Positions 1 to 33,190 of a stretch of DNA of 43,112 nt are shown piece by piece. Made by a program: the position numbers and the translations under genes. The notes below the pieces were generated by a model. The model saw only the letters and a list, made by a program, of their open reading frames with translations. It made no database searches and was not told where the DNA came from. Location of the stretch: NCBI GenBank assembly GCA_015478725.1, contig JADMIG010000022.1, positions 1-43,112 of the forward strand. Direction: 5' to 3'. Source of the stretch: Chloroflexota bacterium (lineage in GTDB: Bacteria > Chloroflexota > Limnocylindria > Limnocylindrales > CSP1-4). Each line of letters opens with the position of its first letter. Position 1 is the stretch's first letter.

Positions 1-153
1 CCGAGCCTGCGGGGCGTGGAGACGCTCACGCTCCCTGGTCAATCGACGACGCTGACGATGACGTTCGATCACCCGGGCGCCTACCAGTTCCTCTGCACGA
101 TCCCGGGCCACGCCGCAGCCGGGATGACCGGTGCGGTGTTCGTCACGCCGTAG
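1..153 (+). CDS. Cupredoxin, C-terminal part (cut by window edge)
   Basis: The first 50 codons in frame 1 encode the end of a plastocyanin-like type 1 copper protein and stop at a TAG at 151-153. The copper-site motif CTIPGHAAAGM supplies the Cys, His and Met ligands; the first His ligand lies upstream of the window. The fragment closely resembles the end of the complete cupredoxin at 13025-13417, including the loop GHAAAGMTGA, so the two are paralogs. Such proteins are normally exported and carry electrons or bind copper at the membrane surface. Its presence left of the fatty-acid operon suggests that copper genes continue beyond the window. The fold call is secure; the function is not. Confidence 0.85.
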   Translation, partial: PSLRGVETLTLPGQSTTLTMTFDHPGAYQFLCTIPGHAAAGMTGAVFVTP

Positions 154-9687: not shown

Positions 9688-10060
9688 GATCCTGTGTCTC
9701 GCTGGCCTTCGGGTCGTTCGTGGCTCGATCATCGAGCCCCGCGGTGGAGCCTGATCGCTCCGGCTGAGCGCCATGTGAGCGGTGGCTGAGATCCTCCGAG
9801 TCCGGCGGCATGTCGTCCTCGCGATCTCGCGCCGACCCACCGCCGCCATGACCGCCATGACCACCTGCGTGCATGAGGAGCATGCCGCCGAAGAGGCCGA
9901 TGTAGAGCACCGCCGAAAGCGGGACGACGCCAGCGAGGACAAGCCCCGCGACAACGACCGCGGCGGTCAGTCCGGGGAGCAGCCACCGAGGAGCGGTGGC
10001 CCGCGGCGCGGCACGCTGGTCGACGGTGTGCCTCGAATGGTCCTGAGCCTGTGGTGTCAT
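9656..10060 (-). CDS. Small membrane protein with His/Gly-rich tail
   Basis: 134 residues. Two hydrophobic stretches (about residues 26-45 and 46-62: LLPGLTAAVVVAGLVLAGVV, then LSAVLYIGLFGGMLLM) are followed by HAGGHGGHGGGG and a polar C terminus ending in HDEHRSHGCH. The layout recalls small DUF2933-like proteins found with copper genes. The start codon lies in an ATGA overlap with the Lgt-like gene, so it is translated from the same message. Metal binding by the His-rich parts is plausible but unproven. The C-terminal 30 codons overlap the truncated cupredoxin in another frame. Confidence 0.7.
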   Translation of the reverse strand: MTPQAQDHSRHTVDQRAAPRATAPRWLLPGLTAAVVVAGLVLAGVVPLSAVLYIGLFGGMLLMHAGGHGGHGGGGSARDREDDMPPDSEDLSHRSHGAQPERSGSTAGLDDRATNDPKASETQDHDEHRSHGCH

Positions 10061-10878
10061 GGTCGGCTGACCTCCAGCTGGATCGAACGTGGCTGGACCG
10101 GACGCGCCTGACGGCGCGCGACGATGAACAGGGCGACCGCGAAGGCCGCGATCCCGAGACCGAACCACTGCGCGGTCTTGAGCCCGAGGAAGACGGCCGG
10201 CTCGTCGCGAAGGAAGAAGAGCCCGAACCGGATGACGGCGAGCCCGAGGAGGTAGCCGCTCGCGAGGACCCCATCGCCGATCCCGGCCAGGCGCCGTCGC
10301 CCGAACCAGAGGCCGACGAAGAGCGCCGCCAGGAGGATCGCCTCATAGGCCTGGGTCGGATGCAGCGGGAGGTTCAGCGGCGCCATCGCGCCAGGGTTCC
10401 GGTAGATCACCGCCCACGGCAGATCGGTCGGGATCCCGGACGAATCGCCGCCGATCAGGCAGCCGAGGTGCCCGATCGCCTGGCCGATCGCCGCCGCCGG
10501 CGCGACGATGTCGAGCGCGGGCAGCAGCGAGATCCGCCGCCGCCGCGCGAAGACGACCAGCGCGACGACGGCCCCGATCAGGCCACCGTAGAAGGAGAGG
10601 CCGCCGGTCCAGGCCATGAACACATGGGCCGGGTGGTCGGCGAGCGTCGCCAGCTCGTTTTGAACCACATAGAGGGCCCGGCCACCGATGAGCGCAGCGA
10701 CGCCCACCCAGACGGCTCCGTCTCCGATGAGATCAGGCGCGATCCCGTGCCGCCGTCCCTCGCGTTGGGCGAGCCAGAACGCCACCGCGACCGCGACGGC
10801 CAGGGTGAGTCCGTACCAGCGGATCGGGATCCCGAGGAGGGAGAACGCGACGGGGTCGATGTCAATGACGAAGGGCAT
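10057..10878 (-). CDS. lgt: Prolipoprotein diacylglyceryl transferase family protein (divergent)
   Basis: 273 residues with seven predicted membrane helices and the Lgt hallmarks PIRWYGL near residue 18, GGLSFYGGLIGA near 91, TDLPWAV and HPTQAYE. Canonical Lgt transfers diacylglyceryl from phosphatidylglycerol to the lipobox cysteine of prelipoproteins. Several family residues differ here: the His of the HGG motif is Tyr, and the GRxGNFxNGE signature reads GHLGCLIGGD, so the arginine and asparagine are replaced. This may be a divergent subfamily with altered activity. It sits between a cupredoxin gene (9 bp upstream) and a His-rich membrane protein (ATGA overlap), an unusual place for a housekeeping gene. 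AGGAG precedes the ATG. Confidence 0.82.
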   Translation of the reverse strand: MPFVIDIDPVAFSLLGIPIRWYGLTLAVAVAVAFWLAQREGRRHGIAPDLIGDGAVWVGVAALIGGRALYVVQNELATLADHPAHVFMAWTGGLSFYGGLIGAVVALVVFARRRRISLLPALDIVAPAAAIGQAIGHLGCLIGGDSSGIPTDLPWAVIYRNPGAMAPLNLPLHPTQAYEAILLAALFVGLWFGRRRLAGIGDGVLASGYLLGLAVIRFGLFFLRDEPAVFLGLKTAQWFGLGIAAFAVALFIVARRQARPVQPRSIQLEVSRP

Positions 10879-11530: not shown

Positions 11531-12394
11531 TCAGACGGTCAGGAGGATGGCGAAGCCGAGGGCGAGCACGACCACCGCGAGGACGAGCTTCGTCCCGCCC
11601 GCGTGCTCGAGGTGCCAGCGGTTGACGACCCGGATGAGCCCCGGCCGGCTGGCGAGGACGAGGAGCGCGACGAGCGGCGTGATGTAGGCGAGGTTGTAGA
11701 GCGCGAGCCCGCCGAGACCGGCGGCGACCGTCCCGCCCGAGCCGAGGAGGGCAACGACGCCGAGATAGACCGCGCCGCTGCAGGGGACCGTGCACAGCCC
11801 GATGAGGATCCCGCCGCCGAACAACGCGACCGGCGAGCTCGAACGTGCCCAGTCGCGCATCCGCCCATGAAGGGCGTGTGGCGCCTCGAGCCTCCAGCTG
11901 GCGTCGGGCAGGAGGACGTCGCGCACCATCCAGAGCCCCATGCCGATCGCGATCAGGGCCGCGACCCGGCTCGGGAGGTGGTTTCCACCGAAGTTCGTCA
12001 GCGAGGCGACCGCGGTGAGGAGCCCGAGCCCGAGCAGGAAGTAGGTGACGAGCACGCCGACGACGAAGAAGGCGCCGAGGCCGAGGACGGTTCGGCTCGC
12101 CGAGCGCGCATCGGGCGCGCCGCTCGCCCCCTCGGTCGCGAGCGACTGTCGTGTCGCCAGCCCGAGAGCGAACGTCGCGAACAGGATGAGGACGCCGAAG
12201 GCGCACGGATTGAAGCCGTCGAGAACGCCGGCGGCCACGATCGCGGGCACGCTGAGCTCGGAGATCGCCTGGTGGTCCGCCATCCGGGGAGAGGCGACGA
12301 GGATCGCTGCCGCGGATGCCGCGATGACCGTGCCGCCGATGAGCGCGAGGAGCAGCCGGGGGCGGGCGACGACGGTGCCGACTGACGCCCGCAT
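11531..12394 (-). CDS. CcdA/DsbD-like cytochrome c biogenesis membrane protein
   Basis: 287 residues with about seven membrane helices. The paired cysteine motifs of thiol-shuttling CcdA/DsbD proteins are present: GFNPCAFGVLILF near residue 58 and GLCTVPCSGAVYLG near 195. Such proteins move reducing equivalents from cytoplasmic thioredoxin to exported cysteine proteins and heme or copper chaperones. The start codon overlaps the stop of the CuA-like cupredoxin gene (TGATG), which supports a role in keeping that protein's cysteines reduced for copper loading. The frame is open further upstream, but this ATG is favoured by the overlap. Confidence 0.85.
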   Translation of the reverse strand: MRASVGTVVARPRLLLALIGGTVIAASAAAILVASPRMADHQAISELSVPAIVAAGVLDGFNPCAFGVLILFATFALGLATRQSLATEGASGAPDARSASRTVLGLGAFFVVGVLVTYFLLGLGLLTAVASLTNFGGNHLPSRVAALIAIGMGLWMVRDVLLPDASWRLEAPHALHGRMRDWARSSSPVALFGGGILIGLCTVPCSGAVYLGVVALLGSGGTVAAGLGGLALYNLAYITPLVALLVLASRPGLIRVVNRWHLEHAGGTKLVLAVVVLALGFAILLTV

Positions 12395-12903
12395 CAGGCG
12401 GTCACCGTGAGCTTGCCGACCATCGAGGGGTTCTCCTTGCCGCCGCAGCAGATGTTGCAGTAGAACGTGTAGGTGCCGGCCGTCGCGGGTGCCGTGAACC
12501 CGAAGACCTTGCTGCTCTGGGGGCCGACCTTCCAGTCGATGCCGAGGGCATCGATCGCGAGCTCGTGCCAGCCGCCTCCGTCGCTGTGGAATGAGGAGTC
12601 CATGCTGCTGAGCTCGATCTGGACTGCCTGCCCCGCCTTGACGGTCAGGCCGGGCGGATCGAAGCCGCCCATGCTCGCGTGGACCTGGATCGCCGCCACG
12701 TCGCTCCCGCCGGGGCCCTGCAACCGGCTCACGACCAGGCCGATCGCCAACCCGCCGACGACGAGCGCGATCGTCGCAAACGCGGCGAGTCGGAGGGGCC
12801 GCGACTGAAGTCCGCCCGGCCGCGACTCGGGAGGCGTGGCCGCGCGGTGGCCGGCTGCAGGTGGCTGGCCCGCGAGGCGGGTGGCCCTGGATCGACGAGT
12901 CAT
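12394..12903 (-). CDS. Membrane-anchored CuA-like cupredoxin (COX2-like)
   Basis: 169 residues: a polar N terminus, one membrane helix at about 38-58, then a cupredoxin domain. The metal loop is FYCNICCGGKENPSM (Cys149, Cys152, Cys153, Met161), reminiscent of the CuA loop C-x3-C-x3-H-x2-M of cytochrome oxidase subunit II and nitrous oxide reductase, but the loop His is absent and three cysteines are present. His106 and His113 lie in the upstream strand region. The ATG at 12903 has GAAGGGA at a good distance; the frame extends to 13011 without support. It is coupled to the CcdA-like gene. The protein may carry electrons or deliver copper. Confidence 0.82.
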   Translation of the reverse strand: MTRRSRATRLAGQPPAAGHRAATPPESRPGGLQSRPLRLAAFATIALVVGGLAIGLVVSRLQGPGGSDVAAIQVHASMGGFDPPGLTVKAGQAVQIELSSMDSSFHSDGGGWHELAIDALGIDWKVGPQSSKVFGFTAPATAGTYTFYCNICCGGKENPSMVGKLTVTA

Positions 12904-13024
12904 GGCGTGGTCCCTTCTGTGAACTGAGGATGGGATGGAGCACCTACCCGTGCCCGACGAACGCGGATGCCGCTCCGCGCGGGCGCGCTCCCGACGGCGC
13001 CTCGCTCGCAAGATGCCGGGACGG

Positions 13025-13417
13025 TCATCGCGTCACATAGGCCGCGCCGGTCATGCCGGCGGCCGCGTGTCCGGCCAGCGTGCAGATGAAGACGTGCGCC
13101 CCGGGCTGGTCGAAGGTGAGCGTGATCGAGCGGGTCTCGCCCGGGTTCAGGATCGACTCGACGCCGCCGAGACCCGGCATGTGGATGGACTGGAAGTTCA
13201 GGTCGTGGCGTTCGGTGCCCCGGTTCGTGAGCCACACCGTGAGCGGCACGCCGACCTTCGCGTCGATCCGGTTGGGCGTGAACCGGAAGTCCTCGAGGAC
13301 GACCGTCGCCGACCGGTTGACCGCGACCGGGCCGCTGAACCGCGCCCCGGTCGCGACCACCGCAACGAGGACGACCGCGACGAGTCCCACTCCGAGCAGA
13401 CAGCCAATGGCCTTCAC
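13025..13417 (-). CDS. Plastocyanin-like cupredoxin
   Basis: 130 residues: an N-terminal hydrophobic signal or anchor (residues 4-24) and a type 1 copper domain with His71 (ERHDL), Cys112 and His117 (ICTLAGH) and Met122 (AAAGM). It is probably exported and serves as an electron carrier or copper-binding protein. It is a paralog of the protein cut by the left edge of the window. The array at 13463-13500 lies 45 bp upstream. The CuA-like cupredoxin gene follows after 121 bp on the same strand and may be co-transcribed, since I see no separate array in that gap. Confidence 0.88.
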   Translation of the reverse strand: MKAIGCLLGVGLVAVVLVAVVATGARFSGPVAVNRSATVVLEDFRFTPNRIDAKVGVPLTVWLTNRGTERHDLNFQSIHMPGLGGVESILNPGETRSITLTFDQPGAHVFICTLAGHAAAGMTGAAYVTR

Positions 13418-13462: not shown

Positions 13463-13500
13463 GTGAGCCGGTCGTGAGCCGGGGCTGAGTGCCGGCTGAG
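13463..13500 (-). promoter_or_regulatory. 11-bp-period CTCAG operator array B (4 copies)
   Basis: In gene orientation the copies read CTCAG, CTCAG, CTCAC, CTCAC with plus-strand starts 13496, 13485, 13474 and 13463, each 11 bp apart. The most upstream copy is TTCTCAG. It ends 45 bp before the cupredoxin ATG. Confidence 0.78.
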
Positions 13501-15493: not shown

Positions 15494-15601
15494 CGGCCTC
15501 GGATCCCTCACCGCACGCCGCTGCATCGCTCCCGGTATCCTGCGGCTCAGGAGCCTGACAACCGAAACTCCCCAACGACACCTGCATGGCGAAGCACCAC
15601 C

Positions 15602-16025: not shown

Positions 16026-16052
16026 CTCAGGCAGCGCTCATCGATCCCTCAT
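16026..16052 (+). promoter_or_regulatory. 11-bp-period CTCAG operator array D (3 copies) with -10 element
   Basis: CTCAG, CTCAT and CTCAT start at 16026, 16037 and 16048, each 11 bp apart; the first is TTCTCAG. TACGAT at 16068-16073 is a possible -10 box, 15 bp after the last repeat, placing the transcript start near 16080. This argues against the ATG at 16072 as the ATPase start. Confidence 0.72.
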
Positions 16053-16167
16053 TCGCCACGGCGACGATACGATGAAGACGAACCAGCCGGTCGAGCCGAC
16101 TGAGGTGTTCACGGCACGGCCCGCCGTGGTTCGACCATCCTCAACGATCGCGAAACGGAGAACGCGT

Positions 16168-18569
<2,402 letters not shown>

Positions 18570-18573
<4 letters not shown>

Positions 18574-21482: not shown

Positions 21483-21716
21483 TCACGCCTCGATCGGGCC
21501 GGCGGTGCGATAGCCCGCCTTCTCCACCGCTCGGACAAGCGACCAGGCGTCGGTCTCAGCCGGGTCGTAGTCGATGTAGGCCATCTCGGTCGCCGGGTTC
21601 ACATAGACGCGGACCACGCCGTCGGTCGCGGCCAGCGCGCGCCCGATCGTCGTCACTCCCGCTCCGCCGCAACCGAGGCCATGGATCGGGATCCGCAGCC
21701 CACGCTTGACGTCCAT
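21483..21716 (-). CDS. HMA-like metal-binding protein with a single cysteine
   Basis: 77 residues with the ferredoxin-like pattern of heavy-metal-associated domains: GLRIPIHGLGCGGAGVTTIG, RVYVNPATEMAYIDYDP and AWSLVRAVEKAGY. The usual GMTCxxC loop is GLGCGGAG, so only one of the two copper-binding cysteines remains. It may dimerise through the Cys or use another ligand. Array E ends 22 bp before the ATG and no good ribosome-binding site is seen, suggesting a leaderless message. It follows the pattern of cytoplasmic copper chaperones such as CopZ but with an altered site. Confidence 0.8.
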   Translation of the reverse strand: MDVKRGLRIPIHGLGCGGAGVTTIGRALAATDGVVRVYVNPATEMAYIDYDPAETDAWSLVRAVEKAGYRTAGPIEA

Positions 21717-21738: not shown

Positions 21739-21765
21739 CTGAGCCGAGGGTGAGTCGCGCCTGAG
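21739..21765 (-). promoter_or_regulatory. 11-bp-period CTCAG operator array E (3 copies)
   Basis: In gene orientation the copies read CTCAG, CTCAC, CTCAG; plus-strand starts are 21761, 21750 and 21739, each 11 bp apart. The array ends 22 bp before the HMA-like gene's ATG. It is back to back with array F, which serves the opposite strand. Confidence 0.75.
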
Positions 21766-21850
21766 ACTTGAGCCTGGGGCGCGCAGGCGACGCGGGCTCG
21801 TGCGTCGCCTGACGGCTCCAGACGCACATTCGCAGTCTCCGGTCGAGATT

Positions 21851-23329: not shown

Positions 23330-23827
23330 TCAGCCGAAACCGGAGCGCTCGACCACGGCGCAGACGCGCCGAGCCTTGCGGAGCCGGCGGCCGATCACGG
23401 CGATCCCGAGCAGGTTCATGGCGATGCCGACCAGGAAGAGCGGGGTCCGGTAGGCGTTGAGGAAGACGGCCGCGGCCGAGAGGCCCACGAGCGGCAGCAG
23501 GTCCACGAGGTGGTGAGCGCAACAGGCGAGCATCGCCGCCGCGCTCGTACCGGTACCCACCGCAGTGACGGCGGCCGCGGCCCGGTGGCGCCGATCGATC
23601 GCCCGGAGCTCCACGAACAGGGCGATCTGCGCGCCGAAGCCCGCCGCGATGAGCCCGACGAACAGTGCATCCGTCGTGAGTTGCTCGACGGCGTGCTCGA
23701 ATCCCTGGGCAATGCCGACGATGGCGAGGTAGGTACCGAGGAGGGATGCCGCACCGGCCATGCCCGCGGCGATCGATCGGGGAGCGATCGGCAGGGTCCG
23801 CCGGACGGGCCGGGCGATGGTTGTCAC
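23330..23827 (-). CDS. Membrane protein with CCxHH motif
   Basis: 165 residues with four to five helices. The striking feature is AMLACCAHHLVDLLPLVGLS at about residues 93-112, where two adjacent Cys and two adjacent His occur within a membrane helix; AVFLNAYRTPLFLVGIAMNL follows. Such a cluster could bind copper or another soft metal in the membrane. The GTG start at 23827 is in a GTGA overlap with the lipoprotein gene, so both are translated from one message under array H. The frame is open to 23980 without protein-like sequence. No family name is assigned. Confidence 0.75.
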   Translation of the reverse strand: MTTIARPVRRTLPIAPRSIAAGMAGAASLLGTYLAIVGIAQGFEHAVEQLTTDALFVGLIAAGFGAQIALFVELRAIDRRHRAAAAVTAVGTGTSAAAMLACCAHHLVDLLPLVGLSAAAVFLNAYRTPLFLVGIAMNLLGIAVIGRRLRKARRVCAVVERSGFG

Positions 23828-24276
23828 GAGCCGATCGTCCAGCGGAACGTCCGCTCGGGGACGGTACCCACGCCGACGAGGTTCAGTTCGATCCACCTCG
23901 CGCCGGCGAGGAAGCGCGGAGTGTCGCCCCCGAACGTGAGCGCACCCTCGCGATGGTGTCCGCCCTTCGCCGCCGCCCACGGCCGGGCCGTCAGGGTCTC
24001 ACCACGGTCGTTGCGCAGGACGGCGGCCGCGAGGTCGAGCGCGTCGAGATCCACCGAGTGGGTGTCGAGCCTGATGTCGAAGGTCGCGCCGACGGCCGGT
24101 CCACCCCAGGTGGCCTCCACGGTGACCTGCCCGCCCTCGCTCGACTTCGTCATGCCCACCGACGCTGGGTTCGCGACGCCGCTCGGCGCCAGGGTCGGCG
24201 TCACGGGCGTGCCCGTGCAGGACGCGACGGCCAGGGGAATGGCGAGGAGAGCGGTGCGAAGCACGTGCATGTTCAT
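23824..24276 (-). CDS. Putative exported lipoprotein
   Basis: 150 residues. The N terminus MNMHVLRTALLAIPLAVASC is a lipoprotein signal with the lipobox VASC at Cys20. The mature part is beta-rich and soluble (TVEATWGGPAVGATFDIRLD, WIELNLVGVG) and contains HSVDLDALDL and KGGHHREG, possible metal ligands. It resembles small exported proteins found with copper genes but has no certain family. ATG 24276 is chosen because it gives a correct signal peptide; the frame extends to 24321. The ATG is 22 bp from array H and lacks an obvious ribosome-binding site. Confidence 0.75.
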   Translation of the reverse strand: MNMHVLRTALLAIPLAVASCTGTPVTPTLAPSGVANPASVGMTKSSEGGQVTVEATWGGPAVGATFDIRLDTHSVDLDALDLAAAVLRNDRGETLTARPWAAAKGGHHREGALTFGGDTPRFLAGARWIELNLVGVGTVPERTFRWTIGS

Positions 24277-24298: not shown

Positions 24299-24325
24299 AT
24301 GAGAGTCGGCTGAGCGGGCACTGAA
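24299..24325 (-). promoter_or_regulatory. 11-bp-period CTCAG operator array H (3 copies)
   Basis: In gene orientation the copies read TTCAG, CTCAG, CTCAT; plus-strand starts are 24321, 24310 and 24299, each 11 bp apart. The array ends 22 bp before the lipoprotein ATG, the same distance as arrays A and E to their genes within 1 bp. Confidence 0.68.
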
Positions 24326-24365
24326 ACCCGCCTGGCAGGACCGTCTCCACATGACCGTCTCCAAT

Positions 24366-24400
24366 GGAGCGCGCCGCGCCGTTGGGTCGCGGCGCGCTCC
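24366..24400 (-). terminator. GC-rich hairpin, likely terminator
   Basis: GGAGCGCGCCGCG (24366-24378) pairs perfectly with CGCGGCGCGCTCC (24388-24400) around a 9-base loop. It begins 15 bp beyond the stop of the Met-rich protein gene and would end that message. No T tract follows, which is usual in this GC-rich sequence. A direct repeat GACCGTCTCCA lies next to it. Confidence 0.7.
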
Positions 24401-24414
24401 CGAACGAAGCCGGC

Positions 24415-24735
24415 TCAGCGGTTGGGGCGCACCTGCGGGTGCATAGCACGCATCCGGGTCGGGTCGCAGGTGCCGTTCGTCGCCATGGACTGGTGCAACC
24501 CGGCCATCGCCTTCATGTCGGCCGCGTCCATCCGGCCCATCATCCCGGCCGCCCCGGAACCGCCCATCATCCCGACCGTCCCGCCCCCGCCCATCATCCC
24601 GACCGATCCGGACCAGGTGGCGTTCGGCGACGGTGAGGCGGTCGGATCCTGGGCCGCGACCAGTCCGGCCGACCCGAGCAGGAGGCTGCCCGCCAGGACG
24701 CTGCCAATGATCAGTCCACGTCGCTTCGAGGTCAT
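24415..24735 (-). CDS. Exported Met-rich protein
   Basis: 106 residues. A signal peptide (about 1-28, ending VAAQ) precedes a Ser/Pro stretch and then GMMGGGG and GMMGGSG-type repeats followed by MMGRMDAADMKAMAGLHQSMA. Met-rich exported segments of this kind bind Cu(I) or Ag(I). A single Cys and a His occur near the end. The gene is 17 bp downstream of the SHOCT gene and ends before a strong hairpin. Copper buffering outside the membrane is the likely role, inferred from composition and context. Confidence 0.75.
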   Translation of the reverse strand: MTSKRRGLIIGSVLAGSLLLGSAGLVAAQDPTASPSPNATWSGSVGMMGGGGTVGMMGGSGAAGMMGRMDAADMKAMAGLHQSMATNGTCDPTRMRAMHPQVRPNR

Positions 24736-24752: not shown

Positions 24753-24974
24753 TCAGATGCCGAGCAGGCGACGGGCCTGCTCGTATTCCGGCGCGCTGAT
24801 CTCGCCGCGCGCGAAGCGCGCCTTGAGGATCCGGGCGGCGTCCTCAGCCGCCGGACGATCTTTCGTCGGGACGGCCGCGACGAGTGCCCAGACGATCACG
24901 ACCACCAGGACGATCCCCACGACCATCCACAGCCAGCCGCCCAGGCCCATGTCCCAGCCGAAGCCGGTCATCAT
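24753..24974 (-). CDS. Small SHOCT-domain membrane protein
   Basis: 73 residues: a Met/Trp/Gly-rich N terminus (MMTGFGWDMGLGGW), one helix (about 15-36) and a C-terminal SHOCT motif, ILKARFARGEISAPEYEQAR. SHOCT segments are short oligomerisation modules common at the ends of small bacterial membrane proteins. It heads a two-gene unit with the Met-rich protein. The paired CTTGA repeats at 25065-25080 lie about 90 bp upstream. Confidence 0.82.
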   Translation of the reverse strand: MMTGFGWDMGLGGWLWMVVGIVLVVVIVWALVAAVPTKDRPAAEDAARILKARFARGEISAPEYEQARRLLGI

Positions 24975-25134: not shown

Positions 25135-26244
25135 TCAGCGGGCGAGGGGCAGTGCCACCCGGAACGTCGCGCCGCGTCCGGGACCGTCGCTTTCCGCCCA
25201 GATCCGCCCATCCATGACCTCGACGAGCGCCCTGGCGATCGCCAGGCCGATCCCCGACCCCCCGAGGGCTCGGGACCGCGACGGGTCGACCCGGTAGAAC
25301 CGTTCGAAGACCCTCACCCGTTGCTCCTCCGTGAGACCGGGTCCCTCGTCGGCGACCGAGAGTGTCACGAACGCACCGTCACCCCGGACTCCGACGGTCA
25401 CTGTCGAGCCTTCGGCCGTGTAGCGGACCGCGTTGCTGAGGAGGTTGTCCAGCACCTGCGTCAGCCGCTCCCGATCGGCTCGCGCGGATGGTGGCCGTGG
25501 AGCCGACCCGAGATGGATCGCCACCCCGCGCTCGGCGGCCATCGCCGTGAACCGCTCCACCGCGGCCGATGCCACCGCGGCGACGTCCACCGGTTCCATG
25601 GTCAACGGCAGCTGGCGTGCCTCCGCCCGCCAGAGCGCCTGGAGGTCGTCGACAAGGCGAGCCAATCGGGCGGTCTCGAGCCGGAGCAGCGTCCAGGTGG
25701 CGGCACGCGGCTCGACGATTCCGTCCTCCAGTCCCTCGAGATAGCCGTCCAGCGTCGCGAGCGGCGTCCGCAGTTCGTGCGCCACGTCGCCGACGAGCTC
25801 GAGGCGGCGCCGCTCGGTCGATTCCAGGGCCGCCGCCATCCGGTTGAACGAGTCGGCGAGCTCGCCGATCTCGTCGGTGGACGTCACCTCGACGCGTTCG
25901 GCGTACCGACCGGTCGCGATCCGCCGGCTCGCCTGCGCCAGGCGGCTGATCGGCCTCGACAGGCGGGCGGACAGCGCCACGCTGACGATCACGGCCGCGA
26001 TCGACGCGGCGAGCACGGCGATGAGCAGCGACGTCCGGACGGAGTCCTGGAAGGCCGCCTGGACGAGATTGCCCATCATCCCGTTCATGCCGCCCATGCC
26101 AGACATGGCATGACCCATCGCGGCGTCGAACGCGCCGGGCGCCACGAGTCCGACCGTCAGGAAGAGCGTGACGCTGCCGACGGCCACGACGGCGAGGTGG
26201 GCGAGGAGCAGTCGGGTGCGGAGCCGCCCCCCGCGCCTGGTCAC
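25135..26244 (-). CDS. Sensor histidine kinase with Met-rich extracytoplasmic loop
   Basis: 369 residues. Helix 1 (about 10-35) and helix 2 (about 70-92) enclose a loop of some 35 residues containing AMGHAMSGMGGMNGMMGN, with six Met and one His in 15 residues (43-57). HAMP follows, then the phospho-accepting His156 in DVAHELRTPL, an N box (DNLLSNAVRY) and the G boxes (DEGPGL, GGSGIGLAIA). The loop is too small for a folded sensor domain and looks like a direct Cu(I)/Ag(I) site. The GTG start overlaps the response regulator stop by GTGA. It is the last cistron of a five-gene unit. Confidence 0.92.
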   Translation of the reverse strand: MTRRGGRLRTRLLLAHLAVVAVGSVTLFLTVGLVAPGAFDAAMGHAMSGMGGMNGMMGNLVQAAFQDSVRTSLLIAVLAASIAAVIVSVALSARLSRPISRLAQASRRIATGRYAERVEVTSTDEIGELADSFNRMAAALESTERRRLELVGDVAHELRTPLATLDGYLEGLEDGIVEPRAATWTLLRLETARLARLVDDLQALWRAEARQLPLTMEPVDVAAVASAAVERFTAMAAERGVAIHLGSAPRPPSARADRERLTQVLDNLLSNAVRYTAEGSTVTVGVRGDGAFVTLSVADEGPGLTEEQRVRVFERFYRVDPSRSRALGGSGIGLAIARALVEVMDGRIWAESDGPGRGATFRVALPLAR

Positions 26245-26939
26245 GCGCGGTCCTCGCGCAAGCGGTATCCGACGCCGCGGACCGTCTCGATGAACCTCGG
26301 GGTGACGGCATCGTCGCCGAGCTTGCGGCGCAGGTTCGCCAGGTGGACATCGACGACATGCTCGTCCCCGACGTAGTCCGTACCCCACACGCGGTCGAGG
26401 AGTCGCTGGCGCCCGAGCACGATCCCGGGCTCTTCGGCGAGGGCGAGGAGGAGGTCGAACTCGATCGTCGTGAGGGCGATCGATCGGCCGCCGACGGTCA
26501 CCTGCCGTCGCCTCGGGTCGATCGCCAGGTCATCGCGCTCGAGGACCCCGTCGACGCCCGCTCGGTTGGCCGGTCTCGGGCGGCGGAGCAGTGCCTTGAC
26601 GCGCGCGACGAGTTCGCGCGGCGAGAACGGCTTGACGAGGTAGTCGTCGGCTCCGACCGAGAGGCCGACGATCCGGTCGATCTCCTCGGCACGGGCGCTG
26701 AGCATGATCACGTACGCGTCGGAGAACTCCCGTGCGCGGCGGAGGACCTCGAAGCCGTCGATGCCCGGCAGCATGACGTCGAGAATGACCACGTCCGGGG
26801 CTCGCTCGCGGATGAGCTGGAGTCCGACGTGGCCGTCGACGGCCGCGATCACCTCCATCCCCTCGCGCTCGAGATAGCCGCGGACGAGCTCGATGATCGG
26901 CGCCTCGTCGTCCACGACGAGCACCCGCGTCGCGGTCAC
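26241..26939 (-). CDS. OmpR-family response regulator (partner of the Met-loop kinase)
   Basis: 232 residues. The receiver has the acidic pair in VVDDEAP, phospho-acceptor Asp54 in VILDVMLPG and KPFSPRELVARV; the C-terminal winged helix is complete (TTIEFDLLLALAEEPG, then DVHLANLRRKLGDD and VRGVGYRL). It binds DNA as a head-to-tail dimer, which suits direct repeats with 11-bp spacing. The GTG start overlaps the kinase gene upstream by GTGA and the stop overlaps the Met-loop kinase start by GTGA, so the four signalling genes are translationally coupled. Confidence 0.95.
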   Translation of the reverse strand: MTATRVLVVDDEAPIIELVRGYLEREGMEVIAAVDGHVGLQLIRERAPDVVILDVMLPGIDGFEVLRRAREFSDAYVIMLSARAEEIDRIVGLSVGADDYLVKPFSPRELVARVKALLRRPRPANRAGVDGVLERDDLAIDPRRRQVTVGGRSIALTTIEFDLLLALAEEPGIVLGRQRLLDRVWGTDYVGDEHVVDVHLANLRRKLGDDAVTPRFIETVRGVGYRLREDRA

Positions 26940-28345
26940 GACTGGCGCAGGGGCAGCGTGACTTCCGCCACCGTGCCACCTCCCTCACGATTCGCGAGCT
27001 CGATCGTCCCCGCGTGCGACTCGACGATCCAGTGAGCGATCGCCAGGCCGAGCCCGGTCCCCGACGGTCGCATCTCACGCGCCCGAGCTCCGCGATAGAG
27101 TCGCTCGAAGATCCGCTCCCGGTCGGTCGCCTCGAGGCCGATGCCCGTGTCCTCGACCCTGACGATCGCGCGGCCAGCGCGGACCTCCAGGTTGGCCGTG
27201 ACGGTCCCGCCGTCCGGCGTATAGCGCGCGGCGTTGTCGAGGAGGATACCGAACAGCTCGCGCAGCCGGTCACGGTCGCCGTCGACGACCGCCGGCTCCA
27301 CGGTGGCCACGCTCATCCGGACCCGCCGGGCGGCCTGGCGCTGGCGCCGCACCGACTCGACGAGCACGGCGTCGAGCTCGACCGGACCGAACTCGAGCCG
27401 TGCCCCCGACTCGGCGCGGGCGAGCGAGAGGAGATCGCCGATGAGCCTGCCCATCCGCTCGGCCTCGTCGCGTGCGTCGGACAGGATCGCCTCCCGCTCG
27501 CCGGCGGGCAGGTTCGACCGTTCCGCGAGATCCAGGTTCGCACGGATCGTCGTCAGCGGCGTCCGGAGCTGGTGCGATGCGTCGCCGAGGAACCGCTGCA
27601 GGGCCTGATGGTTCTGCTCGAGCGCCGCGAGCATCTCGTTGAAGGCGACGGCCAGCTCGCCGACTTCGTCGCCGGGTCGACCCGCCTCGACCCGCGCCGC
27701 AACGTCGCCGGACAGCGAGATCGCGCGGGCCGTCTCGGTGACGTCGGAGACCGGAGCCAGGGCGCGCCGCGCCAGGACGAGTCCGCCGACGAGCGCGAGC
27801 CCGATGAGCATGGTGCCGCCGATGACCAGGGCGGCACTGACCGTGGTGAGGAGGTCGCGCAATGGACGGGTCGAGTCGGCCCATGCCACGTATCCCACCC
27901 GGCTGCCGCTCGTGACGACGACGGGCTCGACCGTCAACCGGAGGACGTCACCACCGGTGGTCAGCTCGCGAATCGCGTGGGCGTGGCGATCCGCGGCCGC
28001 CAGATCCTCGGGCCCGATCGACAGCCCCGGGCTCCGGGCCGGAGCGGAATCGGCGAGCACGGCGCCGTTCGCGTCGAGGACGACGACCCGGCCACCGGTC
28101 GAGGCGAACTGCTCGATCATCCGCGCCGCCGGGCGCAGTCGGCCGCTCGCGTCGGCGTCCTGAGCGAATGCGCCCGCGGCGTGTTCGGCGTTCGCAAGCA
28201 GCCCCGCGTCGAACGACACCTCGAGCTCGGTGCGAAGGACGAGATACATGCCCGTGCCGAAGGCGACGAGGGCCGCCGCGAGGAGCCCGGTGTAGATGAG
28301 GGCCAGCCGCGTCCTGATCGACAGCCGTCGCGGAGAACTCCTCAC
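26936..28345 (-). CDS. Sensor histidine kinase with large extracytoplasmic domain
   Basis: 469 residues. Two helices (about 12-36 and 165-192) flank an extracytoplasmic domain of about 130 residues with no Met cluster and no cysteine. A HAMP domain follows, with phospho-accepting His258 in [10 protein letters not shown], the N box ([11 protein letters not shown]) and G boxes ([18 protein letters not shown]). It pairs with the regulator encoded just upstream, whose stop overlaps its GTG start by GTGA. The signal is unknown; the different sensor suggests a second input into the same operon. Confidence 0.93.
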
Positions 28346-29022
28346 GCTTTCAGGACGTAACCGGCGCCGCGGACCGTGTGGAGGAGGCGCGCCTCGCCGT
28401 TCGCCTCGAGCTTGTTCCGCAGGTACCGCACGTACACCTCGAGGACGTTGGACTCACCTTCGAAGTCGTACGACCAGACGTGCTCCATGATCACGTCGCG
28501 GGTGAGCACCTTGCGCGGATGGCGCATGAACAGCAGGAGCAGGCTGAACTCGGTCGTGGTCAGCTCGATCGTCCGCCCGTCCCGGCGAGCCTCCCTCGCG
28601 TCCACGTCGAGCTCGAGGTCGCCGAACCGGAGGACTTCGCCCGCGGGGGCCGTCCGCCGGCGCAACAGCGCATGGACGCGGGCGAGGAGCTCCTCGAAGC
28701 TGAACGGCTTGACGAGGTAATCGTCGGCGCCGATCTCGAGTCCCTCGACCCGGTCCTTGACGTCGTCGCGGGCGGTGAGCATGAGGATCGCGACCTCGTC
28801 GCCGGCCAAGCGCAGTCGGCGCGTCACCTCGAGGCCGTCCATGCCGGGCATCATGACGTCGAGGACGATGAGGTCGGGCAGGTGCTCGCGAGCCTTTTCC
28901 AGGCCCTCCTCACCCGAGGCCGCCTCCACCACGCGGTAACCCTCGTAGGCGAGGCCGCGGCGGACGACCGTCCGGATCTTCGGATCGTCGTCGACGACGA
29001 GGATGCGAGCGGCCTCGCTCAT
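28342..29022 (-). CDS. OmpR-family response regulator (MprA-like)
   Basis: 226 residues. Receiver motifs are VVDDDPKIR, Asp55 in [18 protein letters not shown] and [12 protein letters not shown]; the winged-helix domain has [15 protein letters not shown], then [12 protein letters not shown] and VRGAGYVLK. It resembles regulators of envelope or metal stress of the MprA/CopR kind. It starts 16 bp after the multicopper oxidase stop and is the first signalling gene of the operon. Either this or the second regulator is the likely ligand of the CTCAG arrays; the sequence alone does not say which. Confidence 0.94.
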
Positions 29023-29038: not shown

Positions 29039-30166
29039 TCAGTGGGTCATCCCGGGCATCGAGCTCATTCCCGGCATCGCGGTCATGTCCGGCGCCATCG
29101 TATGGCCCGGGACCTGACTCGGGCTCGGGCTCGTCGACCCGGCAGGCGCGGGCGAGGAGGTCCCGCCCTTGGCTCGCACGTTCACGACGACGATGAGCCC
29201 GCCCGGTTCCTGGCCGTTGTTCGAGGCGTGGTGGAGATCGTGACAGTGGAGGAGCCAGGCGCCGGGATTGTCGGCTCGGAAGACGACGTCGTACGTCTCG
29301 CCCGGCAGGATGGACAAGGTGTTCAGCCGCTGAGGCGCCGCCAGCCGTTCGCCATCCTTGGCCACGACCGCCATGTCCGTCCCGTGAAGGTGCATCGGAT
29401 GGATCGTCTGGCTCGGGTTGATGAACCGCAGCCGAACCAGATCGCCCTCGGTCACGTCGATCGGCGCGGTGGCGGGGTAGGACTTGCCGTTGATCGTGAA
29501 GTAGTCGTACGCCATGCCCATCGCGTCCATGCCGGCCATCCCGGCCCCGACCATCCAGTTGCCGATGGCGAGCACATACTCACGATCTGCCGCGATCGGA
29601 TCGGCACCCTGCGGGTCGATGATGAACGGAGCATAGAGTCCCTGATCGATCTGCCCGCGACTGTTCGGACCGTGGGCGTGGTACATGAACGTGCCCGCAT
29701 GCGGCGCCGTGAAGCGGTAGGTGAACGTCGCGCCCGGCGCGATCGGAGGCTGCGTGATGCCCGCGACGCCGTCCTGGTCGTTCGGCACGTGGAGGCCATG
29801 CCAGTGAACGGAGGTGGCCTCGGCGAGTGCGTTCCGGACGACGACCTCGACCGTGTCCCCTTCGGTCACCCGGATCGCCGGGCCCGGGACCGTCCCGTTG
29901 AACGTGATCGCCTCGGTCGCGAGGCCCGGGAGGAGCTCCCAGGCGGCTTTCGTCACCGTGAGGTCGAACCGCCGTGTCTCGCCGGTCGGCTTCACCGTGA
30001 CGTTGGCGAGGAGTCGCTCGAGGGACGCGCGCTCGACCGACGAGACGCCCGTCGGCGCTGTGGGCGTCGCGCGAAGCGAGTAGGCGCCGACGGTCCCGGC
30101 GACACCGAGCGCGAGTCCGGAAACCAGGGCGAAGGCGATGAACCGGCGCTGAGACGGTGGACGCAT
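29039..30166 (-). CDS. Two-domain multicopper oxidase
   Basis: 375 residues. The N terminus [20 protein letters not shown] is a Tat-like export signal. All four copper motifs are present: HWHG (121-124), HAH (163-165), HPMHLHG (256-262) and HCHDLHH (307-313). The length and spacing fit a two-domain laccase or copper oxidase, which assembles as a trimer in this class. The C terminus is Met/His-rich ([20 protein letters not shown]), as in enzymes that oxidise Cu(I). It probably detoxifies Cu(I) outside the membrane. It is the first gene of the unit that includes both two-component systems. Confidence 0.95.
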
Positions 30167-30220: not shown

Positions 30221-30247
30221 CTGAGCGCCGGGTGAGTGCGACCTGAG
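30221..30247 (-). promoter_or_regulatory. 11-bp-period CTCAG operator array I (3 copies)
   Basis: In gene orientation the copies read CTCAG, CTCAC, CTCAG; plus-strand starts are 30243, 30232 and 30221, each 11 bp apart. The first copy is TTCTCAG. It ends 54 bp before the multicopper oxidase ATG. As the response regulators follow in the same unit, this array would give autoregulation. Confidence 0.75.
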
Positions 30248-30921: not shown

Positions 30922-30927
30922 ATGCGA

Positions 30928-31614
30928 ATGACCACCGAGCGCACCGCGACCACGGCGCTCAACGAACAGTTTGCCCGGATTGGCAAGGCACTTTCGAGCC
31001 CCCGCCGGATCGAACTGCTCGATCTGCTTGCCCAGGGCGAGCGTCCGGTCGAGTCGCTCGCCGCCGCCAGCGACATGAGCGTCGCCCTCGCTTCCTCGCA
31101 CCTCCAGGCGCTCCGGGCGGCTCGCCTGGTCGAGACCCGTCGGGACGGGCAGCGGGTTCACTACCGGCTCGCGGGCGACGATGTCTATCGACTCCTCAGC
31201 GTCCTTCGCGGCGCGGCACGAGCGCGGCTCGCCGAACTCGAGGTGGCCGTCGTCGCGTACCTGGAAACGCCCGACGAGCTCGAACCCGTCACGCGCGGGG
31301 AGCTCTGGGATCGCGCTCGATCGGGCGCGGTCACCATCCTCGACGTCCGTCCCCGTGAGGAGTACCTCGCGGGCCACATCCCGGGTGCGCTGTCGGTTCC
31401 GCTCGCCGAACTCGGCGATCTGCTCACCCGCCTGCCGCGGGACGCCGAGATCGTCGCCTATTGTCGAGGTCCCTACTGCGTCCTCGCCCCCCAGGCGGTC
31501 GCACTGCTCCGCAGCCACGGTCGTTCCGCGCGGCGTCTCGCGGACGGCTTCCCCGAGTGGCGCCTGGCTGGCCTGCCGATCGCCGTCGGCCCGGCAGCAG
31601 GGATGCCCGCGTGA
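30928..31614 (+). CDS. ArsR-type regulator fused to a rhodanese domain
   Basis: 228 residues from ATG 30928. The N-terminal winged helix (about 10-95) has SSPRRIELLDLLAQGERPVE, SHLQALRAARLVETRRDGQR and VHYRLAG. The C-terminal rhodanese (about 105-218) has LDVRPREEYLAGHIPGA and the active loop YCRGPYCVLA with the catalytic Cys. Such fusions regulate sulfur-oxidation genes and probably sense persulfide. The two genes that follow (DsrE family and a sulfide:quinone-oxidoreductase-like flavoprotein) fit that role. The stop overlaps the next start by GTGA. Confidence 0.93.
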   Translation: MTTERTATTALNEQFARIGKALSSPRRIELLDLLAQGERPVESLAAASDMSVALASSHLQALRAARLVETRRDGQRVHYRLAGDDVYRLLSVLRGAARARLAELEVAVVAYLETPDELEPVTRGELWDRARSGAVTILDVRPREEYLAGHIPGALSVPLAELGDLLTRLPRDAEIVAYCRGPYCVLAPQAVALLRSHGRSARRLADGFPEWRLAGLPIAVGPAAGMPA

Positions 31615-31961
31615 ACGCCCTCGTCATCCTCAACGATCCGCCGTACGGCACGGAGCGCTCGTACAACGGCCTCCGACTCGCGCTCAGCCTGGCGAAGGAG
31701 CGCGAGGTCGAACTCCGCCTCTTCCTCATGGCCGATGCGGTTCGCTGTGGGCAGCGCGGTCAGGAGACCCCCGAGGGCTACTACAACATCGAGCGGATGC
31801 TCACCGGGCTCAGGGTCAAGGGGGTGCCCATCGGTGCCTGCGGGACGTGCATGGCGGCCCGCGGGATGCACGACGAGGCACTCATCGAGGGTGCCCATCG
31901 CTCATCGATGGCCGAGCTGACCACCTGGACGCTGTGGGCGGACAAGGTCCTGAGCTTCTAG
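31611..31961 (+). CDS. DsrE/DsrF-family sulfur-carrier-like protein
   Basis: 116 residues from a GTG in the GTGA overlap. The fold is recognisable by VNALVILNDPPYGTERSYNG, ELRLFLMADAVRCG and VKGVPIGACGTCMAARG. Cys46, Cys77 and Cys80 are candidate persulfide carriers. DsrE-like proteins pass sulfane sulfur between enzymes in the cytoplasm. Between a persulfide-sensing regulator and an SQR-like enzyme it probably accepts sulfur from one of them. The frame is open further upstream inside the regulator gene, but the overlap fixes the start. Confidence 0.9.
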   Translation: MNALVILNDPPYGTERSYNGLRLALSLAKEREVELRLFLMADAVRCGQRGQETPEGYYNIERMLTGLRVKGVPIGACGTCMAARGMHDEALIEGAHRSSMAELTTWTLWADKVLSF

Positions 31962-31978
31962 CCGGCAGGAGGCCGACC

Positions 31979-33190
31979 ATGGCGACGGTTCTCGTTCTCG
32001 GGGGCGGTATCGGCGGTGCCGCGGCGGCGAACGCCCTCCGCGGCCGACTGAGCCGCCAGCACCGCGTCGTCGTCGTGGACCGCGACGCCGACCAGGTCTT
32101 CGCGCCGTCGCTCCTGTGGCTCATGGTCGGCCGGCGCCGGCCGGCGGCCATCTCGCGCCCGCTGGCGAAGATGCTCCAGCCGGGGATCGAGGTCGTGCGG
32201 AGCCATGTTCGCGGGCTCGACCCGGTCGCGCGACGCGTGTCGACCGATGCCGGCGAGTTCACCGCCGATGCGGTCGTCGTCGCCCTCGGCGCCGAGCTCG
32301 CCCCGGAGGCGATCGCGGGCTATGCCGATGCCGCCCACGACTTCTTCACGCTCGAGGGGGCCGGGCGGTTCGCGAACGCGTTCGCAGGGTTCTCCGGCGG
32401 CCGCGTCATCGTGGCCGTCAGCGGATTGCCCTTCAAGTGCCCGGCGGCGCCCTACGAGGCCGCCTTCCTCATCGACGCCGACCTCCGGCGACGGGGTCTT
32501 CGCGACCGGAGCACGATCGAGCTCCACATGCCCGAGCCAGCGCCGATGCCGGTGGCCGGCCCCGTCCTGGGCCGGGCCGTGGTGGACCTCCTCAAGGAAC
32601 GAGGCATCGGCTACTTCCCAGGGCATCCGATCGAGGCCTACGACGGGGCGCCGCGCCAGGTCCGATTCGCGGACGGGTCGGTCGCCGGCTATGACCTGCT
32701 CGCGGCAGTCCCGCCCCATCGCCCACCCGCGGTGGTCGCCACCTCCGGTCTGGCCGGTCCGACGGGCTGGATCCCGGTTGACCGCGAAACGCTCGAGACG
32801 AGCGCGCCGAACGTCTTCGCCATCGGCGACGTGACGGCGATCATGCTTGCCAACGGCAAGCTCCTGCCGAAGGCCGGCGTCTTCGCCCACGCCGAGGCGG
32901 AGGTTGCGGCCGCCCAGATCGCATCACGGATCGAGGGTGGACCGGCCGGCCGGTTCGATGGTCACGGCTACTGCTGGGTGGAACTCGGTGCCGGAGTGGC
33001 GGGCTTCGCCGCGGGCGACTTCTTCGCCGATCCGGAACCGGCCGTCGCCCTGCGTCGTCCGGGCCGAACCTGGCACGCGGGGAAAGTCCTGTTCGAGCGC
33101 TACTGGCTCAGCCGGGGTCTCGAGCACGAACTGGCCGGCGCCGGTCTGCGCCTCGGCAGCGCGCTCCTTCGCGTTCCCGGCCGGCTCTGA
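31979..33190 (+). CDS. Sulfide:quinone oxidoreductase-like flavoprotein
   Basis: 403 residues. FAD binding is shown by VLVLGGGIGGAAAANALRG (4-22) and NVFAIGDVTAI (277-287). The redox Cys154 lies in LPFKCPAAPYEAAFL, the typical SQR context, and Cys331 lies in HGYCWVELGAG near the C terminus; these are the only two cysteines. The usual third Cys of membrane SQR is missing, as in some flavocytochrome c-like relatives. It would oxidise sulfide to persulfide or polysulfide and reduce quinone at the membrane. AGGAGG precedes the ATG, 17 bp after the DsrE gene. Confidence 0.9.
   Translation: MATVLVLGGGIGGAAAANALRGRLSRQHRVVVVDRDADQVFAPSLLWLMVGRRRPAAISRPLAKMLQPGIEVVRSHVRGLDPVARRVSTDAGEFTADAVVVALGAELAPEAIAGYADAAHDFFTLEGAGRFANAFAGFSGGRVIVAVSGLPFKCPAAPYEAAFLIDADLRRRGLRDRSTIELHMPEPAPMPVAGPVLGRAVVDLLKERGIGYFPGHPIEAYDGAPRQVRFADGSVAGYDLLAAVPPHRPPAVVATSGLAGPTGWIPVDRETLETSAPNVFAIGDVTAIMLANGKLLPKAGVFAHAEAEVAAAQIASRIEGGPAGRFDGHGYCWVELGAGVAGFAAGDFFADPEPAVALRRPGRTWHAGKVLFERYWLSRGLEHELAGAGLRLGSALLRVPGRL

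Follow-up and report, generated by a model that had tools for sequence, protein, structure and literature searches.

The DNA analysed here, called the window below, is the entire 43,112-nucleotide contig JADMIG010000022.1 of a 3.45-Mb Chloroflexota genome, and we describe in it a pair of adjacent genes which very likely handles copper. The upstream gene (23824..24276, minus strand) starts with ATG at 24276, ends with TGA at 23824-23826 and encodes a lipoprotein of 150 aa with the lipobox VASC, and the downstream gene (23330..23827, minus strand) starts with GTG at 23827, ends with TGA at 23330-23332 and encodes a membrane protein of 165 aa with four long predicted helices. Both are joined by a GTGA start/stop overlap at 23824..23827 (minus strand), which an earlier note on this DNA had already pointed out. 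In its third long helix the membrane protein carries the motif CCAHH (C102, C103, A104, H105 and H106, within LACCAHH; codons at 23510..23524, minus strand), written CC-x-HH in the following. The lipoprotein contains H107 and H108 in a GGHHREG motif (codons at 23953..23958, minus strand) and H73 in a DTHSVDLD motif (codon at 24058..24060, minus strand). An array of 11-bp direct repeats, array H (TTCA-N7-CTCA-N7-CTCA, 24300..24325, minus strand), lies 23 nt before the lipoprotein ATG. With high probability the pair is real and conserved.

Relatives were taken from a scan of the collection (best 80 of 187). The resulting non-redundant set of 81 loci consists of the window, L010-L016 and 73 of L018-L097, with L020, L022, L027, L037, L044, L052 and L058 left out as duplicates of L010-L016 and L017 as a fragment; some loci are shortened by contig ends. 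The membrane protein alignment (A2, 79 rows) was built without L031 (contig edge) and L095 (broken frame), the lipoprotein alignment (A3, 72 rows) without L042 (partial) and L073. As controls served 20 arbitrary regions of 12.5 kb (250 kb), placed by position in carrier genomes and drawn from six genomes, ten of them from a single one. In addition, 301 genomes of the same phylum were surveyed, a profile match being regarded as strong at E below 1e-20. The relatives belong to Chloroflexota, Actinomycetota, Bacillota, Roizmanbacteria (Patescibacteria), Woesearchaeota, the archaeon Pyrohabitans and one member of the Rhodospirillales; Lentzea, Actinokineospora and Amycolatopsis tucumanensis are culturable carriers among them. 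When 61 near genomes were searched by protein, 8 turned out to contain relatives, the genome of the window being one of the 8, and no relative was found on the plasmids and viral contigs searched.

The motif of the membrane protein is conserved. In the pattern-retrieved set C102, C103 and H105 are each present in 80 of 80 sequences and H106 in 78 of 80, the exceptions being a tyrosine in L067 and L085. Other conserved residues are Q67 and F64 (82/82 each) and M99 (81/81), and 99% of the sequences have an acidic residue, Asp or Glu, at position 109. As one of the search patterns held ACC-H, the set was checked for retrieval bias: 12 of the 79 A2 rows could not have been reached by that pattern, and CC-x-HH is found in 10 of these 12. 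Among the whole-genome matches retrieved by profile it is present in 26 of 28, the other two being fragments without this region. The earlier note had named loss of the motif in homologs as a possible refutation, and the opposite was found.

The AlphaFold2 (AF2) model of the membrane protein has a mean predicted local distance difference test score (pLDDT) of 85, with values of 60-74 over residues 81-120, which include the motif region. The C-terminal half is modelled as two helices, 94-125 and 127-163, and the two cysteines and two histidines within five residues do lie on one modelled helix, the former of these, as had been proposed. Averaged over 79 relatives, the number of lysines plus arginines is 2.6 in the N-terminus, 0.8 in loop 1 (which has 2.5 acidic residues), 1.9 in loop 2 and 4.1 in the C-terminus; since the N-terminus, loop 2 and the C-terminus are rich in positive charges and loop 1 is acidic, both termini are predicted by the charge rule to be inside. 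A per-residue profile shows residues 88-108 and 110-123 to be uncharged, followed by a polar turn at 124-129, where residue 127 is Lys or Arg in 92% of the relatives, and charges again from 147. CC-x-HH would thus lie 18-22 residues ahead of the outer turn (at about 126), halfway across the bilayer or in its inner half, a position that is tentative because of the pLDDT of 60-74 over residues 81-120. The soft-metal site inside the bilayer that had been suggested for these residues fits this predicted position. Segments set by hand, with loop 3 at 107-118, had placed CC-x-HH at the outer end of the third transmembrane helix, which the per-residue profile and the helix 94-125 did not support. In a study of MerE, the Cys pair of that protein is reported to be near the middle of its helix (PMC5715351).

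In the lipoprotein family (72 rows) H73, L77, H107 and H108 are invariant, and the histidine pair singled out in the earlier note corresponds to H107/H108. The acidic clusters named there held up in part: one DTHSVDLDALDL stretch exists, in which D81 is nearly invariant, and clusters in the plural are weaker than claimed. The model of this protein (pLDDT 87 on average, with block means of 93-98 for residues 41-140) contains an all-beta domain of eight strands at residues 42 to 147. In a second look with VIA-align, CrdA of Helicobacter pylori came out on top with Z 9.3 in the silver-bound and 9.1 in the apo form, the best match having a root-mean-square deviation of 2.8 over 96 residues at 6% identity; the same list contains FetP (7.4), P19 (7.3) and unrelated antibody domains at about 7. 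The resemblance of the lipoprotein model to CrdA is suggestive only.

A relative of the lipoprotein was found in 74 of the 81 loci, in 71 as a same-strand neighbour, in L040 and L053 farther off, and in L077 fused to the membrane protein in one reading frame of 310 aa, in which, by inspection, the place of the signal peptide is taken by an additional hydrophobic segment. A joint alignment of this fusion with both families put the HH of the lipoprotein on CCAHH, seemed misaligned and was discarded. Of the seven loci without a match, three (L031, L062 and L065) start together with their contig, L051 has a lipoprotein gene about 12 kb away from the membrane gene, and L038, L048 and L054 showed no lipoprotein match on the stretch examined. 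Of the 301 genomes, 27 have a profile match to the membrane protein and 31 to the lipoprotein when E <= 0.001 is required; at E below 1e-20 the numbers are 25 and 27, and all 25 are among the 27 (Fisher p 1.6e-34, the genomes not being independent of each other). The co-occurrence with lipoprotein genes, which had been suggested as a check, is thus complete for the strong matches (25/25). Two genomes have the lipoprotein only. In G120 (L124, 4822-6532), a genome without a membrane protein match, its gene directly precedes a multicopper-oxidase-like gene (by inspection), whose product is a possible second partner of the lipoprotein; in G134 a lone lipoprotein gene lies near a cupredoxin-like gene (by inspection).

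Array H, which had been described as common to the pair, is one of six such sites in the window, several of which precede copper genes. In the upstream regions of close relatives (C/T)TCA recurs every 11 bases, and the derived pattern YTCA-N7-YTCA-N7-YTCA has seven exact matches at six sites in the window, compared to 0.00 in 100 dinucleotide shuffles; no YTCA triple was found in the window at periods 7-10 or 12-17. The other sites lie before the multicopper oxidase (30222..30247, minus strand), before the HMA protein (21740..21765, minus), before the P-type ATPase (16026..16051, plus), with four units before the cupredoxin-like gene that starts at 13417 (13464..13500, minus) and, by inspection, upstream of short cupredoxin-like and YHS-like open reading frames (ORFs) (9765..9790, minus). 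In the whole 3.45-Mb genome there are 10 matches, 7 of them in this 43-kb contig, and the pattern written backward as a control gave 3.

Across the 81 loci (917 kb) 80 period-11 triples were counted, in 36 loci, with 0 or 1 per period at 8-10 and 12-15; the 20 control regions contain 4 triples at period 11 and 1 at period 9, so that the rate near the pair is about five times that of the controls, in which it is yet not zero. When the sites were assigned to genes, the lipoprotein received 24 of the 80, P-type ATPases 7, response regulators 5 and HMA proteins 4; YHS, one unnamed cluster, a cupredoxin group and the membrane gene have 3 each, kinases and methyltransferases 2 each, four other groups 1 each and other ORFs 5, with 15 left unassigned. 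Nine of the 24 lipoprotein sites have their 5' end 49-50 nt ahead of the start codon, and in L048, L051 and L040, where an adjacent lipoprotein gene is absent, the array precedes the membrane gene. Within -150..+60 of the lipoprotein start it is present in 20 of 71 loci (71 of the 72 upstream regions were used, at least one reading N being omitted). Direct repeats of 11 bp are typical of regulators of the OmpR/PhoB type, and two OmpR-type response regulators are encoded beside the pair in the window. Neither the array nor the motif nor the pairing is well explained by chance.

A different definition of array H, as two 14-nt repeats at 24336-24363, was dropped after the upstream regions of the relatives had shown the 11-bp CTCA pattern. 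These direct repeats follow a perfect 13-nt inverted repeat with a 9-nt loop and no T run (24366-24400), which is located between the array and the next gene upstream, and their sequence was not seen in the readable upstream regions of the relatives.

For the analysis of neighbouring genes, profiles were made from clusters around the 81 loci and run equally on the loci (842 kb within 6 kb) and the controls. As these profiles were chosen and built from the same loci, enrichment as such is partly built in, while the copper identity of the recurrent families is not. Within 6 kb a P-type ATPase was found in 35 of 81 loci (0/20 controls), three cupredoxin groups in 17, 27 and 26 (0/20), an HMA protein in 21 (1/20), a multicopper oxidase in 11 (0/20) and a YHS protein in 35 (1/20); ABC ATPases (26/81 vs 6/20) and methyltransferases (18/81 vs 4/20) are not enriched. 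The strict copper set of P-type ATPase, cupredoxins, HMA and multicopper oxidase is represented in 56 of 81 loci and 1 of 20 controls, and a broad set that adds YHS, DUF2933 and PCYCGC in 68 of 81 and 1 of 20. Neighbours unrelated to metals, the second possible refutation named in the earlier note, are thus for the most part not what was observed. With the addition of thiol-type genes the count rises to 74 of 81 loci, again compared to 1 of 20.

Pfam searches of cluster representatives identified P-type ATPase, YHS, the three cupredoxin groups, DsbD-type proteins, DUF1573 and PCYCGC; the thioredoxin-CcdA-like and DUF2933-like clusters had no Pfam match at E <= 1e-4 and were named by inspection. 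For the P-type ATPase, single-linkage clustering had suggested 60 of 81 loci, which was a chaining artefact; the DKTGT motif gave 26 and cleaned clusters 29, and the profile count of 35 was adopted. A CsoR-like regular expression found nothing in the 81 loci or the controls and was too strict, as L062 shows a CsoR-like sequence. Genes for Lgt, the prolipoprotein diacylglyceryl transferase, are located near the pair in 11 of 81 loci (cluster named by inspection), which fits the idea of a lipoprotein-rich copper system; the Lgt copy of the window, confirmed at 10057-10878 (minus strand), is 13 kb off and outside the 11.

In the window, the pair is part of a larger group of genes. Upstream of the lipoprotein gene, all on the minus strand, are genes for a secreted Met/Gly-rich (MMGG) protein without a Pfam family (24415..24735), a SHOCT-domain protein (24753..24974; PF09851, E 8.7e-7), a sensor histidine kinase (25135..26388, the listed start being possibly too far upstream), an OmpR-type response regulator with Response_reg and Trans_reg_C domains (26241..26939), a second sensor histidine kinase (26936..28345), a second OmpR-type response regulator (28342..29022) and a multicopper oxidase (29039..30166; PF07732, E 4.7e-44). 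On the other side lie the HMA-domain protein (21483..21716, minus; PF00403, E 9.2e-8; start inferred, the listed ORF beginning at 21827), the P-type ATPase (16072..18573, plus; start inferred, the listed ORF beginning at 15586) and a secreted cupredoxin-like protein (13025..13417, minus, by inspection), next to which the gene at 12394-12984 has a Cupredoxin_1 match. Copper ATPases usually carry CPC; the ATPase of the window has CPD (ACPDALGLATP), as do 7 of 30 neighbouring ORFs with DKTGT across the 81 loci. In the HMA protein GLGCGGAGV replaces the usual CxxC copper motif, yet the array precedes its gene. The copper cluster is adjoined at 30922-33190 (plus strand) by a sulfur-handling set of an ArsR-rhodanese fusion, a DsrE protein and an ORF that by inspection is flavoprotein-like.

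Both proteins of the window are below every Pfam cut-off, with sub-threshold NCBIfam matches only; the listed Pfam families of their relatives include no copper or mercury family beyond two MerE matches (best E 0.025) and Cation_efflux; sequence searches of the PDB gave two matches at E 0.65 and 0.71 for one protein and none for the other; the membrane protein model had no PDB match at Foldseek E <= 0.001 and no convincing one otherwise. One open-access library, searched with a few terms, gave no description of the pair and no paper joining CCAHH, copper and a membrane protein.

Of the two nearest precedents in function, one is given by the mercury transport systems, in which MerP, an outside metal protein, is combined with a membrane protein (MerT, MerE or MerF) that has vicinal cysteines inside a helix. 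In hhalign the C-terminal half of the membrane protein aligned to MerT with a probability of 46 and E 2e-4 for one comparison, CC on CC, the MerT alignment having six rows, three annotated and three MerT-like below the cut-off. A common origin with MerT is possible. In contrast to MerT, the membrane protein has an extra N-terminal helix pair, it has CC-x-HH where the three annotated rows have CC-x-G-P, and it lacks a second conserved Cys pair on the cytosolic side (no other Cys column in A2 is nearly invariant); the pair also has copper genes as neighbours. The NCBIfam model merT_RC607 matched the membrane protein of the window at E 0.017 (15.5 bits, cut-off 130), and MerT (PF02411) was not among 25 of the 26 families listed for the 79 membrane proteins at E <= 0.1. 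The predicted fold of the lipoprotein is unlike that of MerP. In MerE, according to the study named above, the transport of Hg(II) depends on a His adjoining the Cys pair (PMC5715351).

CopC and CopD are the second precedent. One article describes the two as acting together, the outside domain feeding the membrane domain, and as fused in YcnJ (PMC13344008), and the pair resembles this arrangement in having an extracytoplasmic domain and a polytopic membrane protein that can be fused and lie beside copper genes. It differs from CopC/CopD in the CC-x-HH site and in the outside partner, which is a lipoprotein, and since its predicted mature N-terminus is the lipobox Cys, there would be no N-terminal His brace as in CopC. 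CopC (PF04234) was not among the 21 families listed for 72 lipoproteins at E <= 0.1, nor CopD (PF05425) among 25 of 26 for the 79 membrane proteins. CrdA of H. pylori is described as a protein devoid of His that presumably binds copper by way of Met (PMC9182242), whereas the lipoprotein family has three invariant His, and in A3 no Met column is invariant or nearly so, i.e. no Met-rich copper motif of the CrdA type was found. YtkA/CtaK, implicated in CuA assembly according to the same article as for CopC (PMC13344008), is likewise a membrane-anchored lipoprotein; a relationship of the lipoprotein to YtkA (PF13115) was not supported (hhalign probability 0.7, reversed controls 0.5 and 1.1). YtkA-family genes occur within about 4 kb of the pair at G065:C1, G077:C21 and G171:C6 and C15. 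The copper-bound chains of FetP and P19 share the VIA-align list with CrdA, with scores within the range of unrelated beta proteins there; these iron systems consist of a secreted protein and a membrane permease, and their membrane partners differ from the CC-x-HH protein.

Cation_efflux (PF01545) was found below threshold in 19 of the 79 membrane proteins (best E 2.6e-5; for the protein of the window 18.6 bits, cut-off 26.6). A relationship of the membrane protein to the cation diffusion facilitators (CDF) was not supported at an hhalign probability of 1.1, one of ten CDF rows having been omitted from this comparison because of stops. H105-x3-D109 (23501-23515, minus strand) resembles the H-x3-D of CDF helix 2, and a weak alignment superposes them although the profiles do not match.

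We consider it an even chance that the two proteins form one unit, a copper relay within a two-component copper regulon, with Cu(I) passing most probably inward. Pairing, one fusion, the motifs, the charge-rule topology, the copper neighbourhood and the shared operator are observed; metal identity, binding, transport and direction we infer, copper from the gene context. In this relay, the lipoprotein, anchored outside the cytoplasmic membrane, would bind copper via H73, H107 and H108 on a CopC/CrdA-like all-beta domain and exchange it with the membrane protein, whose third helix would provide a buried soft-metal site made of C102, C103, H105 and H106, with M99 and D109 one turn off. Much as MerT takes over Hg(II) from MerP, the membrane protein might then move Cu(I) through the bilayer, most probably inward, to the HMA protein and the P-type ATPase under the same operator. 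What favours inward over outward passage is precedent; passage across the membrane, and in the inward direction, is the best single mechanism, at odds of about even. In the genome of the window COX1 is present and CopD and YtkA have no match, and therefore the pair is, in this one genome, a candidate for the missing route.

Several observations weigh against this relay. An importer that is co-regulated with an apparent copper-stress set is counter-intuitive, and in A2 no Cys beyond C102/C103 and no cytosolic His is nearly invariant. The Z score of CrdA, 9.3, is only about 2 above that of unrelated antibody domains, and Foldseek gave no match for the lipoprotein model at E <= 0.001. Four scripted MerT comparisons reached probabilities of only 20-32 (reversed controls 0.5-3.7, N-terminal half 2.6-3.8). 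Seven of the 81 loci have neither a copper nor a thiol-type neighbour, some carry cytochrome-c maturation genes instead of copper neighbours, and G074 and G086 have fragmentary membrane protein matches without a lipoprotein match. COX1 is present in 23/25 genomes that have the membrane protein and in 230/276 that lack it (p = 0.39), so that the link to oxidase genes as such that had been suggested as a check was not found. For CopD the counts are 16/25 and 190/276 (p 0.66), and they do not support the idea that the pair replaces CopD.

The hand-over could also be outward or extracytoplasmic. The membrane protein would then accept Cu(I) from the P-type ATPase or from inside the cell, and the lipoprotein would pass it on, for metallation or detoxification, to the multicopper oxidase and to cupredoxins. 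This would suit the array, which precedes both multicopper oxidase and P-type ATPase, the cupredoxin, YHS and multicopper oxidase neighbours, the arrangement in G120 and the lack of a conserved cytosolic ligand in the membrane protein; as the per-residue data place the motif mid-bilayer instead of at the outer end of the helix, this possibility loses some weight, and 46 of 81 loci have no P-type ATPase match within 6 kb (some loci ending at contig ends), which leaves an outward hand-over rather unlikely. A role as an assembly factor for cytochrome c or oxidases, with a CC pair that either is redox-active or supplies cytochrome maturation with copper or thiol chemistry, appears more doubtful still. 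It could account for the fact that 33 of 81 loci (0/20 controls) have a gene for CcdA, a thioredoxin-like protein, CcmH or CcmF within 6 kb, among them L038 and L054, which have CcmF and CcmH and no lipoprotein match, but the His pair, which a thiol-redox role would not need, is as conserved as the Cys pair, COX1 does not track the membrane protein gene and copper genes are the commoner neighbours.

CC pairs and P-type ATPases are involved in the handling of Hg, Ag and Cd as well, and together with the MerT-like C-terminal half this might point to mercury or another soft metal (Ag, Au, Cd) in place of copper. We regard this as very improbable, given that cupredoxins and multicopper oxidases recur nearby, that a multicopper oxidase has the same operator, and that a search of 151 genomes of the same phylum gave no MerT (PF02411) match above the cut-off and 3 weaker ones, mercuric reductase neighbours not having been searched. 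Slightly less credence still is given to a sensory accessory which would report external copper to the histidine kinase and transport nothing: kinases (35/81 vs 3/20) and response regulators (39/81 vs 4/20) are indeed frequent neighbours, but 46 of 81 loci have no kinase match within 6 kb and it would be unusual for a sensor to have a polytopic partner in which CC-x-H is invariant.

The pair could represent an undescribed class of prokaryotic copper transporter, combining a MerT-type Cys helix pair with two His and an added helix pair, a nearly constant three-His lipoprotein partner and, in Chloroflexota, the 11-bp CTCA operator, and spread over Chloroflexota, Actinomycetota, Bacillota, Patescibacteria and archaea, a proposal that we make tentatively and hold a little less probable than its opposite. 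Inward copper transport across the bacterial cytoplasmic membrane is poorly known, which is why the pair matters; one review considers further importers likely and none characterised in detail (PMC7558416). The CTCA operator outlines a compact copper regulon; it could help to locate further copper genes in Chloroflexota, and it would mark copper regulons in little-studied phyla as well. Being widespread, with a compact conserved site, a partner of its own, a natural fusion and a recognisable operator, the pair has a role that is directly testable.

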